Positions 27,944-52,981 of a DNA stretch of 64,000 nucleotides are shown piece after piece; within the stretch, counting starts at the first letter, position 1, and each line of letters starts with the position of its first letter. The stretch lies in contig CAKTWW010000005.1 of the NCBI GenBank assembly GCA_934630855.1, forward strand, positions 1 to 64,000, given 5' to 3'. The notes beneath the pieces are model-generated. The model did no database searches, was not told where the DNA came from, and was given only the letters and a program-made list of their open reading frames with translations. Origin of the DNA: an uncultured Collinsella sp. (GTDB lineage Bacteria; Actinomycetota; Coriobacteriia; Coriobacteriales; Coriobacteriaceae). The translations under genes were made by a program, and so were the position numbers.

Positions 27944-27952
27944 GAATGCAGG

Positions 27953-28013
27953 TAGTCATTGGGGACGTTCTTTAATGACTAGTCGTTTAAGAACGTCGCA
28001 GGAGACTAGTTGT
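27953..28013. repeat. Dispersed repeat, family B (TGGGGACGTTCTT)
   Basis: TAGTCATTGGGGACGTTCTT (27953-27972) is followed by a central GACTAGTC and a partial inverse copy AAGAACGTC. The identical 20-mer recurs at 31607-31626 with the same central palindrome. The repeat overlaps the stop codon of the DUF956 gene at 28006. Confidence 0.8.
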
Positions 28014-31560: not shown

Positions 31561-31606
31561 AACAGACTGAGCTTGACTATTTGCATGGCTTATGCTCTAG
31601 CACAAG

Positions 31607-31660
31607 TAGTCATTGGGGACGTTCTTGTTTGACTAGTCATGTAAGAACGTCTCCAACGAC
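31607..31660. repeat. Dispersed repeat, family B, second copy
   Basis: TAGTCATTGGGGACGTTCTT (31607-31626), GACTAGTC, then AAGAACGTCTCCAACGACGA in inverse orientation form an imperfect palindrome. The first 20 bases are identical to 27953-27972. Confidence 0.8.
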
Positions 31661-31672
31661 GAGTCAAAAAAG

Positions 31673-32207: not shown

Positions 32208-32326
32208 GTCAGCGAGCGGCGATCCAGGTGCCCCAGGTTGCCCCGAAACAAGGCGTCCGCTGGGCTTTTGCCCGCGGCGCCGAAGTTGAGGGGCAAGATG
32301 GGGTGCCTGGGCGCCGCGCAGCGTCG
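32208..32326 (+). repeat. Structured repeat element, copy 1 (possible ncRNA)
   Basis: This 119-nt element begins GTCAGCGAG and ends GCAGCGTCG. Stems: P1 32216-32221/32312-32317 and 32224-32235/32299-32310, P2 TTGCCCC/GGGGCAA (32238-32244/32290-32296), P3 32252-32265/32270-32281 around TTTT. Two P1 pairs are G-U only if the plus strand is the RNA. Copies 2 and 3 (46956-47072, 52319-52435) keep the same stems with different sequence. It points at the 3' end of the gene ending at 32362. Confidence 0.7.
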
Positions 32327-32361
32327 GCAGTGCCGCCGTTCGTTAGAACGGCGGAACCTAT

Positions 32362-35139
32362 CTATTTGCGACCAAACTTAATTTTGATGGCGCGCTTGAG
32401 GGCGTACTTGCCCAGGCTGGGGAGCTTTTGCTCGTATTTGACCATGGTGGAGCACTCGGGGCGGTCGCGATCGAGGTGGATGGCGTCGAACGCGCACTTA
32501 GTAGTGCACAGACCGCAGCCGATGCACTTGTTGGGATCGACGATCGAGGCGCCGCAGCCCAGGCAGCGGGCGGTCTCGGCACGCACCTGCTCCTCGGTAA
32601 AGGTCTCGACGTACTCGCTAAACGGCGCAGCCTTCTCGCGCTCACGGTCGACGCGCGCGACCTCGCGGCTCGCGTTGTCGTAGCTCTCGATCACAATATC
32701 GTCGCGGTCGAGCGCAGTATAGCGGCGCTGGTTACGGCCGATGGTGAGCGTAGAGCCCGGCTGCACAAAGCGATGGATGGACACGGCGGCCTCGTGGCCG
32801 GCGGCGATGGCATCGATGGCAAAACTCGGACCGGTGTAGACGTCGCCGCCCACAAAGATGTCGGGCTCGGCGGTCTGATAGGTCTTGGGATCGGCGAGAG
32901 CGCCCTGGCCGCGGCCAAGCTCCACCTTGGAACCGGCCAGCAGGTCGCCCCACACGATGGACTGACCAATCGACATGACCACGCGGTCGGCGTCGACACG
33001 ACGCAGGTCGTTCTCGTCGTACTCGGGCGCAAAACGGCCCTCGTCGTCCGTGACACGCGTGCAGCGTTTAAAGGTGATGCCGCACACACGACCAGCCTCG
33101 TCCAGGTGGACCTCCTTGGGGCCCCAACCGCAGCTGATGTGCGCGCCGTCCTCGATGGCCTCGCGACGCTCTTCCTCGCTGGCGGGCATCTGAGCCTCGC
33201 TCTCCAGGCAGAACATCTCAACGTGCTCGGAGCCCAGACGGCAGGCGTTGCGGGCGACGTCGATGGCCACGTTGCCGCCGCCCACCACGATGGTGCGACC
33301 GGGCAGCGCGTCGACTTTACCGCTGTTGACCTCACGCAAGAAGTCGACGGCAACGGTCACGTCCTCGGCATCCTCGCCCGGAATACCGGCAAGGCGGCCG
33401 CCCTGGCAGCCGATGGCCACGTAGAAGGCCTTAAAGCCCTGCGCGCGCAGCTCGTCGAGCGTCACATCGCGGCCGACCTCCACACCGTAGCGGAACTCGG
33501 CGCCCATCAGGCGAATGACCTCAACCTCGGCCTCGATGACATCTTTCTGCAGCTTAAAGCTGAGGATGCCGTAGGTGAGCATGCCGCCCGGGCGCTCGTT
33601 CTTCTCGAACACGACGGGCTTGTAGCCCTTCTCGGCCAGGTAGAAGGCGCAGGACAGGCCGGCCGGACCGGCACCGATGATGGCGATCTTCTGGTCGAAG
33701 CCGCCGGCGCGCGTCGGGGTCACCACAGGCGGGACATAGCGGGTCGCGGCGTCCAGATCACGCTGGGCGATGAACTTCTTGACCTCGTCGATAGCCACGG
33801 CCGCGTCCACACGACCGCGGGTGCAGGCGTCCTCGCAGCGGCGGTTGCATACGCGGCCGCAGATAGCGGGCAGCGGGTTCTCGCGCTTGATGAGCGCCAG
33901 GGCCTCGTCATAGCGGCCCTGGGCCGCGAGCTTCAAATAACCCTGAACGGCGACATGCGCAGGGCAGGCCGTCTTGCAGGGGGCCGTGCCGGACTCATGC
34001 GTCTCGATACGGTTGTCGTTGCGGTAGTTGGGCGACCACTTGGTGTGATCCCACTTGGTGGCGTCGGGCAGCTCCTGGCGCGGATACTCGGGCACGCGCC
34101 CGCCGGCCTTTTTGCTGCAGAGCTTCTGGCCCAGCTTGGCGGCACCGGCCGGACACACCTCAACGCAGCGGCCGCACGCCACGCACTTGTCCTTCTCGAC
34201 CTTGGCGACGTAGGCCGAACGCGACAGGTTGGGCGTGTTGAACAGCTGCGAGGTGCGCAGGGCGTAGCACACGTTGACGTTGCAGTTGCAGATGGCGAAG
34301 ATCTTGTTCTCGCCGTCGATATTGGTGATCTGGTGCACAAAGCCGTTGTCCTCGGCCTGGCGCAGGATATCGTAGACCTCGTCGCGCGTCACGTAATGGC
34401 CGCGGTCAGTCTCGACCACGTAATCGGCCATATCGCCCACGGCGATGCACCAGTCGGCCGGATCATCAGCGCAGCCCTCGCCCATCACGCGACGGCTCGC
34501 ACGGCAGCTGCAGGTGCTGGCGGCATACTTGCCCTCGTATTTGTCGAGCCAGTGCTCGATATGCTCAATGGGCACCGAGGTGCTCGTGGCGTCGATGGCC
34601 TTCTCGACCGGAATGACGTGCATGCCGATGCCGGCGCCTCCGGGCGGCACCATCGGCGTGGCTTTGGACAGCGGGCCCTTGGATGCCTGCTCAAAGAACT
34701 TGGCGTAGACCGGATGCTCCTCGAGCTGGCTCACGCGCATGTTGAGGAACTCGGCAGAACCCGGCACCAGCATGGGCAGCACCCACTGCTTGGCGCGCTT
34801 GGGGTTTTCCCAGTTGTACTCGAGCAAGCCCGTGTAGCTCATGTCGTCGAGCATCTTCTCGATATCGGCCTCGGGCATGCCGGTGAGCTTGACCATCTCG
34901 GGCAGCGTATAGGGACGACGCATCTTCATCTTGCAAAGCACTTCAGCCTGCTCGTCGGTCGCGGCCTCGGCAAACGACCAGTACTCGTAGCCCAGCAGCT
35001 CGTCGCGATGGAGCAGACGGTTGGTGCAGTGCTCGCACAGCTTGACGATGGCCTCGCGCGGATGCTCCGGTATCGGCGACACAAACTCCGCACCGATGTC
35101 GGGCTCGGTATAGCTAATCCCCGGTCCGTTGAGAATCAT
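32362..35139 (-). CDS. Multidomain Fe-S flavoprotein oxidoreductase (GltD/DPD-like)
   Basis: The 925-residue protein is built of several redox modules. Residues 1-310 form an N-terminal domain with cysteine clusters STCSCRASR and CNCNVNVC, and 319-330 hold a 4Fe-4S site CVACGRCVEVCP. A GltD-type Fe-S domain covers 385-450 (CKTACPAHVAVQGY, ICGRVCNRRCEDAC). The FAD fold starts at IAIIGAGPAGLSCAFYL (485-501) and the NAD(P) fold at IVVGGGNVAIDVARNA (617-632). A C-terminal ferredoxin motif CIGCGLCTTKCAFDAIHL ends the chain. It probably shuttles electrons between NAD(P)H and ferredoxin or an unknown substrate. The ATG at 35139 follows AAGGGAC. It is divergent from a TetR gene whose operators overlap its promoter. 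Confidence 0.85.
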   Translation of the reverse strand: MILNGPGISYTEPDIGAEFVSPIPEHPREAIVKLCEHCTNRLLHRDELLGYEYWSFAEAATDEQAEVLCKMKMRRPYTLPEMVKLTGMPEADIEKMLDDMSYTGLLEYNWENPKRAKQWVLPMLVPGSAEFLNMRVSQLEEHPVYAKFFEQASKGPLSKATPMVPPGGAGIGMHVIPVEKAIDATSTSVPIEHIEHWLDKYEGKYAASTCSCRASRRVMGEGCADDPADWCIAVGDMADYVVETDRGHYVTRDEVYDILRQAEDNGFVHQITNIDGENKIFAICNCNVNVCYALRTSQLFNTPNLSRSAYVAKVEKDKCVACGRCVEVCPAGAAKLGQKLCSKKAGGRVPEYPRQELPDATKWDHTKWSPNYRNDNRIETHESGTAPCKTACPAHVAVQGYLKLAAQGRYDEALALIKRENPLPAICGRVCNRRCEDACTRGRVDAAVAIDEVKKFIAQRDLDAATRYVPPVVTPTRAGGFDQKIAIIGAGPAGLSCAFYLAEKGYKPVVFEKNERPGGMLTYGILSFKLQKDVIEAEVEVIRLMGAEFRYGVEVGRDVTLDELRAQGFKAFYVAIGCQGGRLAGIPGEDAEDVTVAVDFLREVNSGKVDALPGRTIVVGGGNVAIDVARNACRLGSEHVEMFCLESEAQMPASEEERREAIEDGAHISCGWGPKEVHLDEAGRVCGITFKRCTRVTDDEGRFAPEYDENDLRRVDADRVVMSIGQSIVWGDLLAGSKVELGRGQGALADPKTYQTAEPDIFVGGDVYTGPSFAIDAIAAGHEAAVSIHRFVQPGSTLTIGRNQRRYTALDRDDIVIESYDNASREVARVDREREKAAPFSEYVETFTEEQVRAETARCLGCGASIVDPNKCIGCGLCTTKCAFDAIHLDRDRPECSTMVKYEQKLPSLGKYALKRAIKIKFGRK

Positions 35140-35232
35140 GGTTGTCCCTTCTCTTGCCGCAGCCCGGCGAGACCGCGGCGCCCCTCTTTTTTGCAGGTCG
35201 GGCACGCCTCCCATGCCGTTCACCCGCCGTTG

Positions 35233-35270
35233 TTGACATTGTGTCAAAAATAGTATTGACGAACCGTCAA
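35233..35270. promoter_or_regulatory. Two TTGAC-N5-GTCAA dyads, candidate TetR operators
   Basis: TTGAC-ATTGT-GTCAA (35233-35247) and TTGAC-GAACC-GTCAA (35256-35270) are identical in their arms. Their centres are 23 bp apart, about two helical turns. They lie between the divergent oxidoreductase and TetR genes and overlap TACTAT, a possible minus-strand -10. Such dyads fit dimer pairs of the adjacent regulator. Confidence 0.75.
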
Positions 35271-35311
35271 CAATATTCAAGACTGTTAGGCGAACGGTTA
35301 GGCAAAAGCGG

Positions 35312-36010
35312 ATGAAAGGCGGCAAGCGCATGAACAACAACACGGCAGATACCTCTGTGGTCGATGCTGTCCCCGCCGTCGATGCCACCGCGACAGCCGA
35401 CGGCGCGGCAAAGCGCATGACGGGTGACGAACGCCGCCGCGAGATCCTCGATGCCGTGCGCACCGTAAGCTCCGAGCTGGGCGTATCCCACCTTTCGGTG
35501 TCGGCCGTGACCAAGCGGGCCGGCTGCACGCGCTCGCTGTTCTACCACTACTTTGCCGATATGGACGCCGCCGTCACCGCCGTTATGGACGAGGCGATCG
35601 ACGGCTTTATCTCCGAGCTCGAGCAGTGGAACGCCAGCCGCACCGTCGGCGATATCGAGGGCGCGCTCGACACCGTCGCACCGCTCTTTAAGCGCCTGGT
35701 CGCCAGCGGCCACGAGCTGCCGCACACCCTGACCAGTAACAGTGGCGCGCTCTACGGCGGCTTTTTGCACAACGTGGTCCAGCGCGTGGCACAGTACATC
35801 TGCGACACCACCGTAGTAGACTTTGTCGCCCATCACGACCTGCGCATCGACCATGTCTACGAAACGTTCTACACCCTCATCATGGGTCTTTTGATGTATA
35901 TCCGCACGCACCCCGATGTGCCCGACGAGACGGTCAAGGAAATCATCGCCTCGACGCTCCACATCGAGGGCTACACCGCCAAGTATCCCGAGCGCAGGCC
36001 CGGGAACTGA
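35312..36010 (+). CDS. TetR-family transcriptional regulator
   Basis: The 232-residue protein has a disordered N-terminal extension (about 35 residues), then a TetR helix-turn-helix: ERRREILDAVRTVSSELGVS followed by LSVSAVTKRAGCTRSLFYHYF. A ligand-binding helical domain makes up the rest. ATG 35330 (MNNNTADTS) is an alternative start with AAGGCGG upstream. It is probably a repressor of the divergent oxidoreductase and of its downstream membrane gene, acting on the two dyads at 35233-35270. The ligand is unknown. Confidence 0.88.
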   Translation: MKGGKRMNNNTADTSVVDAVPAVDATATADGAAKRMTGDERRREILDAVRTVSSELGVSHLSVSAVTKRAGCTRSLFYHYFADMDAAVTAVMDEAIDGFISELEQWNASRTVGDIEGALDTVAPLFKRLVASGHELPHTLTSNSGALYGGFLHNVVQRVAQYICDTTVVDFVAHHDLRIDHVYETFYTLIMGLLMYIRTHPDVPDETVKEIIASTLHIEGYTAKYPERRPGN

Positions 36011-46928: not shown

Positions 46929-46955
46929 CAAAGCAACGTCGCAGGTTGAGGACGG

Positions 46956-47072
46956 ACAGCGAGCGGGCCGCATTTGAGACAAAGTGACGTGAAACGAAAG
47001 GGCGCTGACCTTCTGGTCGCGCCCTTGAAGTTGAACGTCAGATTGTCCAAATGCGGCCCGCGCAGCGTCGAG
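46956..47072 (+). repeat. Structured repeat element, copy 2 (possible ncRNA)
   Basis: This 117-nt element starts ACAGCGAG and ends GCAGCGTCGAG. P1 is a perfect 14-bp stem (46963-46976/47048-47061), P2 TGACGT/ACGTCA (46985-46990/47035-47040), P3 AAGGGCG/CGCCCTT with GACC/GGTC inside (46998-47026). GAAAC follows P2 as in copy 1. It is preceded by GCAGGTTGAG (shared with copy 3) and followed by a hairpin (47075-47102) overlapping the hspR stop codon. Confidence 0.72.
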
Positions 47073-47101
47073 CCGTTACGCGGTTTGGTAAAACCGCGTA
47101 A

Positions 47102-47518
47102 CTACAAATCCCCTCCGGCGCCCAGCAGCTTGCGCATGACTTGCTCGGGGTTGACCGAGCCGTCGCGCGGGGCCAGGGCGGTAATCTTCTTCTGCATCTT
47201 GTACTCGTGCAGCTCTTCCTCGAGCTGACGCACGCGGGCGCGGAGCTTTTCGTTCTCGCGCTCGCGCTCCTCGGCGCGTTCCTTCATATCGAGGATGCGC
47301 ACCACGCCGGCAAGGTTGATGCCCTCGTCGGTGAGCTGGTTGATAAGCTCCAGACGTTCGATATCGGCACGCGAATACAGACGCGTGTTGCCGCCCGAGC
47401 GCTGGGGATTCACCAAGCCCTTGGACTCGTAGACGCGCAGAGTCTGCGGGTGCATGCCGGTCAGCTCGGCCGCCACGCTGATCATGTACAGCGGTTTGTT
47501 CCTATTGTCCTCGGCCAT
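47102..47518 (-). CDS. hspR: MerR-family heat-shock repressor HspR
   Basis: The 138-residue protein has an N-terminal MerR helix-turn-helix (MISVAAELTGMHPQTLRVYE, then GLVNPQRSGGNTRLYSRADI) and a coiled coil at about residues 65-110. In actinobacteria HspR is the last gene of the dnaK operon, represses dnaK and clpB, and uses DnaK as co-repressor. Start at 47518 (MAEDNRNKPLYM) with AGGTAGC upstream. It follows dnaJ by 73 bp. The matching 27-bp dyads before dnaK and clpB are its likely targets. Confidence 0.92.
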   Translation of the reverse strand: MAEDNRNKPLYMISVAAELTGMHPQTLRVYESKGLVNPQRSGGNTRLYSRADIERLELINQLTDEGINLAGVVRILDMKERAEERERENEKLRARVRQLEEELHEYKMQKKITALAPRDGSVNPEQVMRKLLGAGGDL

Positions 47519-47591
47519 GCTACCTGACCCCTTTCCGTCTCGCACATCTCCATCATAAGCCTGCGGCCAGCCCGTGGGCCGCGCGGCCCAA

Positions 47592-52229: not shown

Positions 52230-52280
52230 TGCACAAAAAGGAGGCCTCCGCATCGCCGCGGAGGTCTCCTTTTTTGTGCA
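52230..52280. terminator. Bidirectional terminator after the ferredoxin gene
   Basis: The long stem GTGCACAAAAAGGAGGCCTC pairs with GAGGTCTCCTTTTTTGTGCAC minus its last base. Both strands carry a T-tract. Confidence 0.9.
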
Positions 52281-52318
52281 CGGGCAGCCACTATAGTAAC
52301 ACCGCAGGTTGAGCATAA

Positions 52319-52435
52319 GTCAGCGAAAACGCCCCTAAGCGAGTAAGGTGACGTGAAAGAGGAGGGAAGCGTACTTTGGTACGCGACCGACGATTGAACG
52401 TCAGATTGCCCAAATGGGGCGTTTGCAGCGTCGAG
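52319..52435 (+). repeat. Structured repeat element, copy 3 (possible ncRNA)
   Basis: This 117-nt element starts GTCAGCGA and ends GCAGCGTCGAG right at the niaR stop codon. P1 AAACGCCCC/GGGGCGTTT (52327-52335/52416-52424), P2 TGACGT/ACGTCA (52349-52354/52398-52403), P3 GCGTAC/GTACGC (52369-52374/52379-52384). P1 and P3 sequences differ from copy 2 but remain paired. TGAAAG after P2 and TTGAACGTCAGATTG are shared. Confidence 0.72.
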
Positions 52436-52981
52436 CTAGGACAAGTCGTCCTCATAGGGCATCAGATCGGCCAGATAGCCCTTCTCCTTGAGCAGTGCCT
52501 CGATCTCGTCGAGGGTTTGCTCGTCTTCTGCCGCGATGCGGTGGAAGTGATAGCCGCTGGTCACCGTCAGCAGCGGAAAGCTCTTGCCGCTGGCGATGTC
52601 GTGCAGGTAGCGCTCGATATCGCGGCGGTTGCGAATGTCCAGGTCGGCCGTAATCTTGCCGTACACGCGGTGGTTGACGATCACGTTGAGCACGGCGCCG
52701 CCCGCATCGACGATGCTCGTGAGCTCATCGCCCGCCTGCTCCACGCTGTGGCGCACCTTGACCAGGCGCGTGGGCACAGCCGGGCTGCTCTCGGCTTCCT
52801 GGAGCACGTAGCCGCGGTTGGTGGCGACGATATCGTGCCCGTCGGCGCGCAGCAGGGCGATGTCCTGCACCACGACCTGACGGCTCACGCCCACCTCGCG
52901 GGCAAGGGCGCTGCCCGAAACGGGATCTTTGGCCCCCTCGAGCACGGCCATGATGGAACGGCGACGCTCGCGGGCATTCAT
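52436..52981 (-). CDS. niaR: Niacin-responsive transcriptional repressor NiaR
   Basis: The 181-residue repressor of NAD synthesis responds to nicotinate. An N-terminal helix-turn-helix (SGSALAREVGVSRQVVVQDI) is followed by a 3H ligand-binding domain with conserved histidines (VIVNHRVYG, ERYLHDI, GYHFHRI). It is the last gene of nadA-nadB-nadC-niaR and starts at an ATG overlapping the nadC stop. It probably acts on the large dyad at 56345-56388, forming an autoregulated operon. Confidence 0.92.
   Translation of the reverse strand: MNARERRRSIMAVLEGAKDPVSGSALAREVGVSRQVVVQDIALLRADGHDIVATNRGYVLQEAESSPAVPTRLVKVRHSVEQAGDELTSIVDAGGAVLNVIVNHRVYGKITADLDIRNRRDIERYLHDIASGKSFPLLTVTSGYHFHRIAAEDEQTLDEIEALLKEKGYLADLMPYEDDLS

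Follow-up and report, generated by a model that had tools for sequence, protein, structure and literature searches.

A dispersed repeat family of Coriobacteriales with a predicted hairpin fold that abuts stop codons

REP/BIME repeats occur in mosaic arrangements, ERIC/YPAL-type repeats are imperfect palindromes of 100 bp or more that lie between genes and are possibly co-transcribed, and the attC sites of integrons are defined by the core sites RYYYAAC and GTTRRRY. Classical tagged REPs measure 20–40 bp and carry a GTAG or CGTC tag; those with the CGTC tag, reported from five other phyla, have stems of 8–9 bp with A/T first pairs and loops of 4–5 nt (passages of PMC3733652). REPINs consist of two inverted conserved REPs near a RAYT gene (passages of PMC3116915). 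In E. coli, about 11% of the predicted REPs lie within 15 nt of a stop codon, and an earlier study counted 260 of 496 near stops (passages of PMC12306157). Insertion sequences (IS) of the IS1111 group have a DEDD transposase and sub-terminal inverted repeats of 11–13 bp with extensions of 7 and 3 bp, and some members of the group target REPs and attC sites (passages of PMC11187229).

The window analysed here, a stretch of 64,000 nt from kin of the Collinsella aerofaciens group (order Coriobacteriales), carries three copies of a repeat whose coordinates are collected in Table 1. The copies were noticed in an initial annotation, and a covariance model finds all of them again on the plus strand; because this model was built from 22 copies, the three of the window among them, their scores are not independent of it. 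Fold z-scores, calculated for the plus strand against dinucleotide shuffles, place the predicted fold of the window copies far beyond chance. By their Pfam domains, the genes behind the three copies are unrelated to each other. The far-side neighbour of copy 1 is hypA.

Table 1 Features of the three repeat copies in the window
Feature	Position	Strand	Basis or remark
Copy 1 core	32209..32327	+	Covariance model match 90.5 bits; fold z −8.6
Copy 1 second hairpin H1, GTGCCGCCGTTC-GTTA-GAACGGCGGAAC	32330..32357	+	
Copy 1 adjacent gene, Fe-S/FAD oxidoreductase	32362..35529	-	Pfam Pyr_redox_2, Fer4_20; ORF by longest start
Copy 2 leader CGCAGGTTGAG, upstream of core	46940..46950	+	
Copy 2 core: CAGCGA, long imperfect hairpin H2 (P1, two purine-rich internal loops, P2, P3), GCAGCGTCG	46956..47071	+	Covariance model match 122.5 bits; fold z −10.5
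Copy 2 second hairpin H1, GTTACGCGGTTT-GGTA-AAACCGCGTAAC	47075..47102	+	12 bp stem
Copy 2 adjacent gene, MerR-family regulator	47102..47545	-	Pfam MerR_1 75.6 bits; stop codon abuts copy 2
Copy 3 leader CGCAGGTTGAG	52303..52313	+	Sequence
Copy 3 core, without H1	52320..52434	+	Covariance model match 97.4 bits, mismatched pairs marked; fold z −5.7
Copy 3 adjacent gene, HTH_11 and 3H domain regulator	52436..52981	-	Stop 1 bp from core

The complete unit measures about 150 nt and consists of a short leader, the start motif (T)CAGCGA, a hairpin of 100 nt (H2), the motif GCAGCGTCG, a spacer of 3–5 nt and a second hairpin (H1). The core is 115–117 nt long in 115 of 141 copies. According to the upstream sequences of 86 Collinsella copies and 29 outer copies, most copies have a leader of loose conservation before CAGCGA, with the types CGCAGGTTGAG or CGCCGATGTTTTGGCAA in Collinsella and GGT...AAG in many outer copies; that of copy 1 is weak. 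H2 is predicted to comprise a hypervariable P1 of ~14 pairs, a 2x2 purine loop, P2 of 6–7 pairs, a second purine loop in which G-A faces G-A or G-G-A, and P3. The core is followed by H1 in 98 of the 141 copies; among the remaining 43, one runs into a contig end. H1 is a nearly perfect stem, typically of 12 pairs, that closes with a loop G-N-N-A or G-N-A. The loops of 96 of these 98 hairpins have the form G-N(N)-A, a type that would be expected to be exceptionally stable in DNA hairpins. Collinsella also contains a type B, which keeps the interior of H2, lacks H1 as well as the CAGCGA and GCAGCGTCG ends, and reaches into the gene end with its arms in some copies.

The boundaries drawn in the initial annotation were too tight: copies 1 and 2 run on into H1 next to the stop codon, and in copy 2 H1 ends with the C of CTA, the reverse complement of the TAG that stops the minus-strand gene. 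Distances of 36, 30 and 1 bp between core and minus-strand stop had been given for copies 1, 2 and 3, for which we measure 34, 30 and 1 bp. The base preceding CAGCGA, described as G or A, is A, T and T in copies 2, 3 and 1. The statement that three stems are kept in all copies stands as far as a predicted fold with compensatory changes is concerned and fails in copy 3, where the upper P1 is open because its two arms match different subtypes, the 5′ arm the TAAGCG type and the 3′ arm the CAAATG type. Copy 3 looks like a chimera, and with its open upper P1 it indicates that single copies can decay. Altogether the observation is confirmed and its interpretation borne out in part; the family is larger than described, and the second hairpin, the stop-codon rule and the mismatch-based evidence for the strand had been missed.

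By sequence statistics, the shape of H2 appears to be kept while its letters change, which supports well the claim of compensatory changes in a conserved structure. In a first alignment, RNAalifold predicted 33 pairs, 23 of them with two-sided changes. The suggested check for covariation in a larger alignment gave a strong result: among 58 distinct sequences from the genus and the order, fitted to the structure in a way that favours it and with 17 rows of opposite-strand readings still counted, two-sided variation is found at each of the 33 pairs, 95.1% of the cells pair, and the covariation score is 0.771 versus 0.205 for shuffles and at most 0.134 for slid partners. A second alignment of 92 sequences, mostly from two Collinsella genomes, likewise fitted to the structure and with one such row, has two-sided changes in 30 of the 33 pairs and a score of 0.611 versus 0.162 shuffled and at most 0.101 slid.

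The hint that it is the plus strand which folds is upheld by the types of mismatches. In 79 dereplicated copies scored in a strand-neutral way, mismatches within the arms are 151 times G-T versus 47 times A-C, and G-A occurs 477 times versus 5 times for C-T. Among mismatches flanked by pairs, 68 G-T stand against 21 A-C (p = 6e-7, shared descent ignored). The plus strand is also predicted to be the more stable one in 76 of the 79 copies, under RNA and DNA parameters alike. Counts on a plain MAFFT alignment are weaker (140 G-T versus 78 A-C; in Collinsella alone 60 versus 52), probably due to misaligned variable arms, and the H1 stems are without asymmetry (4 G-T, 3 C-A). These mismatch types point to the plus strand as the folding strand. 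Because both G-T and G-A are tolerated by RNA and by single-stranded DNA, the asymmetry names the strand and not the chemistry.

The window copies belong to a large family whose members are scattered through genomes. Searching the nearest genome examined (G001) with a pattern that fixes the end motifs alone gives 21 matches, of which 20 resemble the element and one false match (L015) was dropped. At E ≤ 0.001, the covariance model gives 51 matches in G001 and 46 in a further genome of the genus (G025), which correspond to about 46 and 39 places after removal of opposite-strand readings; the weakest place in G001 is another palindrome. Within the genus, 39 of 43 genomes match the model (opposite-strand readings included), with 28–49 matches in each of 23 genomes, 15 in one genome that is 72% complete, and 0–14 in 19. 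In the order, 112 of 247 genomes have the element, and these matches are spread over 34 of 99 genera. When 396 genomes were drawn from the phylum and stricter filters applied, 18 matched, all within Coriobacteriales and none outside. By dropping 18 opposite-strand duplicates, 159 matches were reduced to a working set of 141 copies. Seven of these copies overlap a gene called by our own simple ORF caller, and the others are intergenic. Tandem copies (L130, L353) as well as truncated and possibly nested copies also occur. Remnants suggesting insertion into older copies were seen on the left at 7, on the right at 4 and on the wrong side at 0 of 103 loci; nested insertion was rejected as a general rule, being confined to few loci, and some of the 7 left remnants are probably due to chance. 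Viral spread was likewise dismissed, since the one exact match in viral_contigs comes without a model match across its 5.9 kb.

Compared with Rfam at cut-off, the window gives only a tRNA, copy 2 has its best sub-threshold match with STnc380 (17.5 of 60 bits), and 16 further loci give no family, relaxed thresholds having also been tried; this comparison covers the Collinsella-1 motif (RF01700) only if it is present in the copy of Rfam used. We found no description of the repeat family in the open-licence literature, and the passages of PMC8040213 and PMC2864571 consulted do not describe the element. The family looks like an undescribed one of small repeats that spread through genomes.

That the copies point into the 3′ end of minus-strand genes is true for the window and general in the family. 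Of the 141 non-overlapping copies, 121 have a minus-strand gene on the H1 side and 12 a plus-strand gene, and 8 are undecidable. In 121 of the 133 copies that can be decided, the element lies behind the stop of this gene and antisense to it. In 86 of the 121, the unit's outer edge is within −3 to +6 nt of the stop, and in 102 within −15 to +10 nt, counts which include orthologous, not fully independent copies and depend on our simple ORF caller; in a control of 40 other intergenic hairpins, 6 lie within −3 to +6 nt and the median distance is 59 nt. The abutting part is H1 or, where H1 is missing, GCAGCGTCG. At the far outliers L105, L114, L133, L137 and L172, an older H1 remnant lies in between and itself adjoins the stop. 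At two loci of the outer family f2 (L212, L214), the hairpin at the edge of the element contains the stop codon TGA in its 4-nt loop, which means that the reading frame ends inside this hairpin.

Stop usage beside the elements (70 TAG, 39 TAA, 12 TGA) resembles that of the surroundings (279, 204 and 54). Therefore no particular stop codon is the target, and stop-codon type was ruled out as the rule. Both neighbouring genes are read opposite to the element in 78 of the 141 copies, where the folding strand would be purely antisense; in the convergent context, found in 37 of 141, the plus strand would be 3′ UTR. Replication strand was considered as a cause of the orientation: in G025, 31 of 39 copies adjoin a leading-strand gene, compared with 205 of 326 sampled genes on that strand (p = 0.03), an effect too weak for 121 of 133. 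We also discarded H1 as an independent terminator hairpin, since three of the four hairpins with H1 sequence in the window and a sample of G025 lie right at the end of the core and the fourth resembles what a deletion would leave behind.

Occupancy differs between strains at the three orthologous sites, where the element is present, absent, inverted or re-typed. At site 3 (behind 52436–52981), 20 C. aerofaciens-like loci contain the element in 10 cases (one truncated), another palindrome in 7 and nothing long in 3. On a tree of 3 kb of adjacent genes, supported branches force at least 4 changes at this site; turnover or recombination is therefore fast. The fewest changes on this tree are 8 versus a shuffled mean of 7.4, that is, the labels are as scattered as shuffled ones, so that loss and recombination may outweigh new insertion. 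At site 2 (behind 47102), the element is present in 14 of the 20 closest loci, in several subtypes and always in the orientation of the window, and the other 6 contain different palindromes and element relics, some as short as GCAGCGTCG. It is absent from this site in 10 more distant Collinsella loci, 5 of which have weak matches on the neighbouring gene's far side. Site 1 (between 32362–35529 and hypA) was compared in 30 loci: the window orientation is found in L283 and L285, weak matches in the same orientation in L292 and L294, and the inverted element in seven (L268, L272, L277, L280, L281, L287, L291); reading by eye identified an empty site in L267 and deletion remnants in L269–L271, L273 and L276. 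Neither a clean target-site duplication nor the exact junction of an empty site could be pinned down at the orthologous sites examined; these sites are mosaics of several repeats.

Other repeats were encountered as well. A long palindrome (AAGTTGCGGTGAAATAGTTCCT...) at 1890–1970 of the window is found in other strains in the element's stop-adjacent place (L022–L025, L028, L035, L037). Near-perfect long hairpins, each different, lie directly behind the orthologous gene at site 2 of distant Collinsella (L257, L262, L264). Repeated stretches with TAGTCATTGGGGACGTTCTT are located at 27949–28010 and 31603–31664 of the window, and related stretches also occur upstream of several element copies in other genomes.

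The repeat is itself hit by an insertion sequence, one end of which abuts AGCGA-H2 at eight loci (L170:103-1224 and L176:103-1224 in G025; L239, L240, L025, L037, L040 and L347). The eight loci cover no fewer than three places, namely two in G025 and site 2 of other strains, and include a G007 contig that may or may not equal one of the two G025 places. In the two G025 copies, both ends of the 1.5 kb IS were read; it interrupts the element in CGAC/AGCGA, with the leader on one side and AGCGA-H2 on the other. Its 373-aa DEDD transposase (PF01548 and PF02371) and its ends, AGACACT-ATGACCCAATCC ... GGATTGGGTCAT-ATG, with extensions of 7 and 3 bp and sub-terminal repeats, place it in the IS1111 group. 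The element/IS pair is a natural target system for studying RNA-guided IS1111-type targeting. The initial annotation had allowed for the element being just an IS-derived terminal repeat. An IS1111-type IS does adjoin some copies, but it interrupts the element in both copies read through, which contradicts this explanation, and the element is widespread in the order. A degenerate IS end is thus hardly tenable; the repeat is the landing site of the IS.

No mobilising enzyme was found when RAYT/Y1_Tnp and reverse transcriptase genes were searched in the genus genomes, 36 of 42 of which have a Y1_Tnp match. Movement as a REPIN or REP by a REP-associated tyrosine transposase (RAYT) would agree with the distribution of the element: all 6 genus genomes without Y1_Tnp hold 0–4 element matches and 30 of the 36 with it hold at least 5 (Fisher p = 1.8e-4), an association confounded by kinship because the copy-rich genomes are close kin. 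However, among 30 Y1_Tnp loci read with ~1.5 kb of flank per side, only one has an element match, a weak one of 45.9 bits beside a gene that we take for IS200-like, and the element was never seen on the flanks of a RAYT gene. At three of 22 RAYT-size loci (L326, L328, L340), a palindrome unlike the element, with GGGACAGTCCC or GGGACTGTCCC as its core, lies nearby and may represent the REPs of Collinsella RAYTs. G028 has a Y1_Tnp match without the element. We rejected RAYT as the mover and regard this explanation as quite unlikely. A reverse transcriptase (group II intron, retron) was rejected, too: RVT_1 is present in 12 of 42 genus genomes and missing from the copy-rich G001 and G025, with ~40 copies each.

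With a probability of about 60%, we interpret the repeats as a non-autonomous, interspersed, REP/ERIC-like hairpin repeat family of Coriobacteriales. Of the two possibilities named in the initial annotation, a structured RNA or a hairpin-mobilised element, the latter is the best fit given the dispersal, the patchy orthologous sites and the inverted and tandem copies. Our proposal is that copies propagate, or did so formerly, by way of the folded plus strand, which an enzyme acting in trans would move. As the form that spreads, we lean slightly towards a single-stranded DNA hairpin, and an RNA intermediate seems rather doubtful. In the host, a copy may be chiefly a passive stem-loop obstacle downstream of the stop codon, with possible effects on translation termination, mRNA 3′ decay or read-through, as has been reported for E. 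coli REPs close to stop codons; we suggest this tentatively, at somewhat less than even odds. Against the interspersed repeat family stands that a passive mobile repeat alone does not account for the exact stop-codon position. Furthermore, there are 12 exceptions to the orientation rule among 133 copies, 7 of 30 loci have the element inverted at site 1, the mover was not found, a clean target-site duplication is missing, the site 3 labels are scattered as if shuffled, and the strand asymmetry is weaker on the plain MAFFT alignment. A bolder version would be a new kind of mobile element whose folded single strand (H2 plus H1) is delivered to reading-frame ends by a new recombinase or RNA-guided enzyme. 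We consider it unlikely. If true, the stop-codon abutment would be the targeting rule and the enzyme a new insertion tool, and to our knowledge this would be the first case of insertion tracking translation termination.

The strong covariation, the conserved unpaired words, the higher stability of the plus strand and its excess of G-T over A-C and of G-A over C-T are also compatible with a structured regulatory RNA, for which the plus strand would be transcribed and the folded RNA would act as antisense or trans RNA on the facing genes. However, folded single-stranded DNA would give equal asymmetry, a sigma-70-type scan of both strands around the window copies picked up nothing resembling a promoter, and minus-strand left neighbours start within 60 nt in 17 of 87 cases, which leaves little room for a promoter. 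Also, the 78 copies with both neighbours read against the element and the unrelated genes beside the window copies argue against a regulatory RNA, which is therefore improbable. An mRNA 3′-end device, in which H1 and H2, read in sense direction behind the stop, would protect the mRNA, modulate termination or stall ribosomes, is supported by the 86 of 121 copies whose edge lies at the stop. The sense strand folds well, too (z −9.2, −3.3 and −5.8 for copies 2, 3 and 1), and E. coli REPs less than 16 nt from a stop codon can reduce translation (passages of PMC12306157). Yet in 76 of 79 copies the sense strand is the one that folds less well, the C-T and A-C mismatches are on this strand, no terminator-like site scored at the elements themselves in the three window copies (a separate one lies beyond copy 3, at 52264–52245), and presence is not conserved at the orthologous genes examined; we hold such a device to be possible, if somewhat unlikely. 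Covariation can finally arise without selection on the fold by palindrome-correcting mutation, i.e. template switching between the arms. Frequent G-C to C-G swaps, as if one arm had been copied onto the other, and the extension of some type B arms into the gene end would be in line with it. But internal loops should then vanish, yet the purine loops are unpaired in the folded Collinsella and outer-family copies, and the mismatch types of the 79 copies are strongly one-sided, which makes this explanation very unlikely.

With the interspersed hairpin repeats, an order that includes common gut species gains a family with a defined predicted fold and a strikingly precise position behind stops. It makes testable whether such repeats are parasites, 3′-end devices or both, and what moves them.

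In size and as imperfect intergenic palindromes, the elements resemble ERIC/YPAL-type repeats, with which they were compared by description only. The hosts are unrelated, and we know of no comparable strand asymmetry or stop-codon rule in ERIC/YPAL. With attC sites they share a single-strand fold that appears conserved while the letters vary, and the core pair RYYYAAC/GTTRRRY was not seen by eye at the element ends in an alignment of 25 copies. Both attC sites and REPs are, like the element, targets of some IS1111-type insertion sequences (passages of PMC11187229). REP/BIME repeats of E. coli and others are also dispersed, high-copy extragenic palindromes of which a share lies close behind stop codons. 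In contrast to them, the Coriobacteriales unit is ~150 nt long, includes a 100-nt hairpin with predicted covarying pairs and abuts stops tightly; a tag directly at the stem is lacking, and CGTC is found a few nt before H1. H1 is nevertheless reminiscent of CGTC-tagged REPs, being preceded by GCAGCGTCG, which contains CGTC, and no dedicated transposase is known for these REPs (passages of PMC3733652) or for the element; it differs from them in its 12 bp stem, its G-N(N)-A loop of 3–4 nt and in being part of a larger unit. REPINs are similar in being hairpin-forming repeats that cluster when new copies insert into or beside older ones, and in their presumed mobilisation in trans (passages of PMC3116915). 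In the present family, however, the end motifs CAGCGA and GCAGCGTCG are direct, the outer stem is the most variable part, and the Y1_Tnp loci read show no RAYT gene flanked by the element. The position recalls REPs, the insertion beside older copies REPINs and the size ERIC; the defining features of REPINs and of tagged REPs are lacking.
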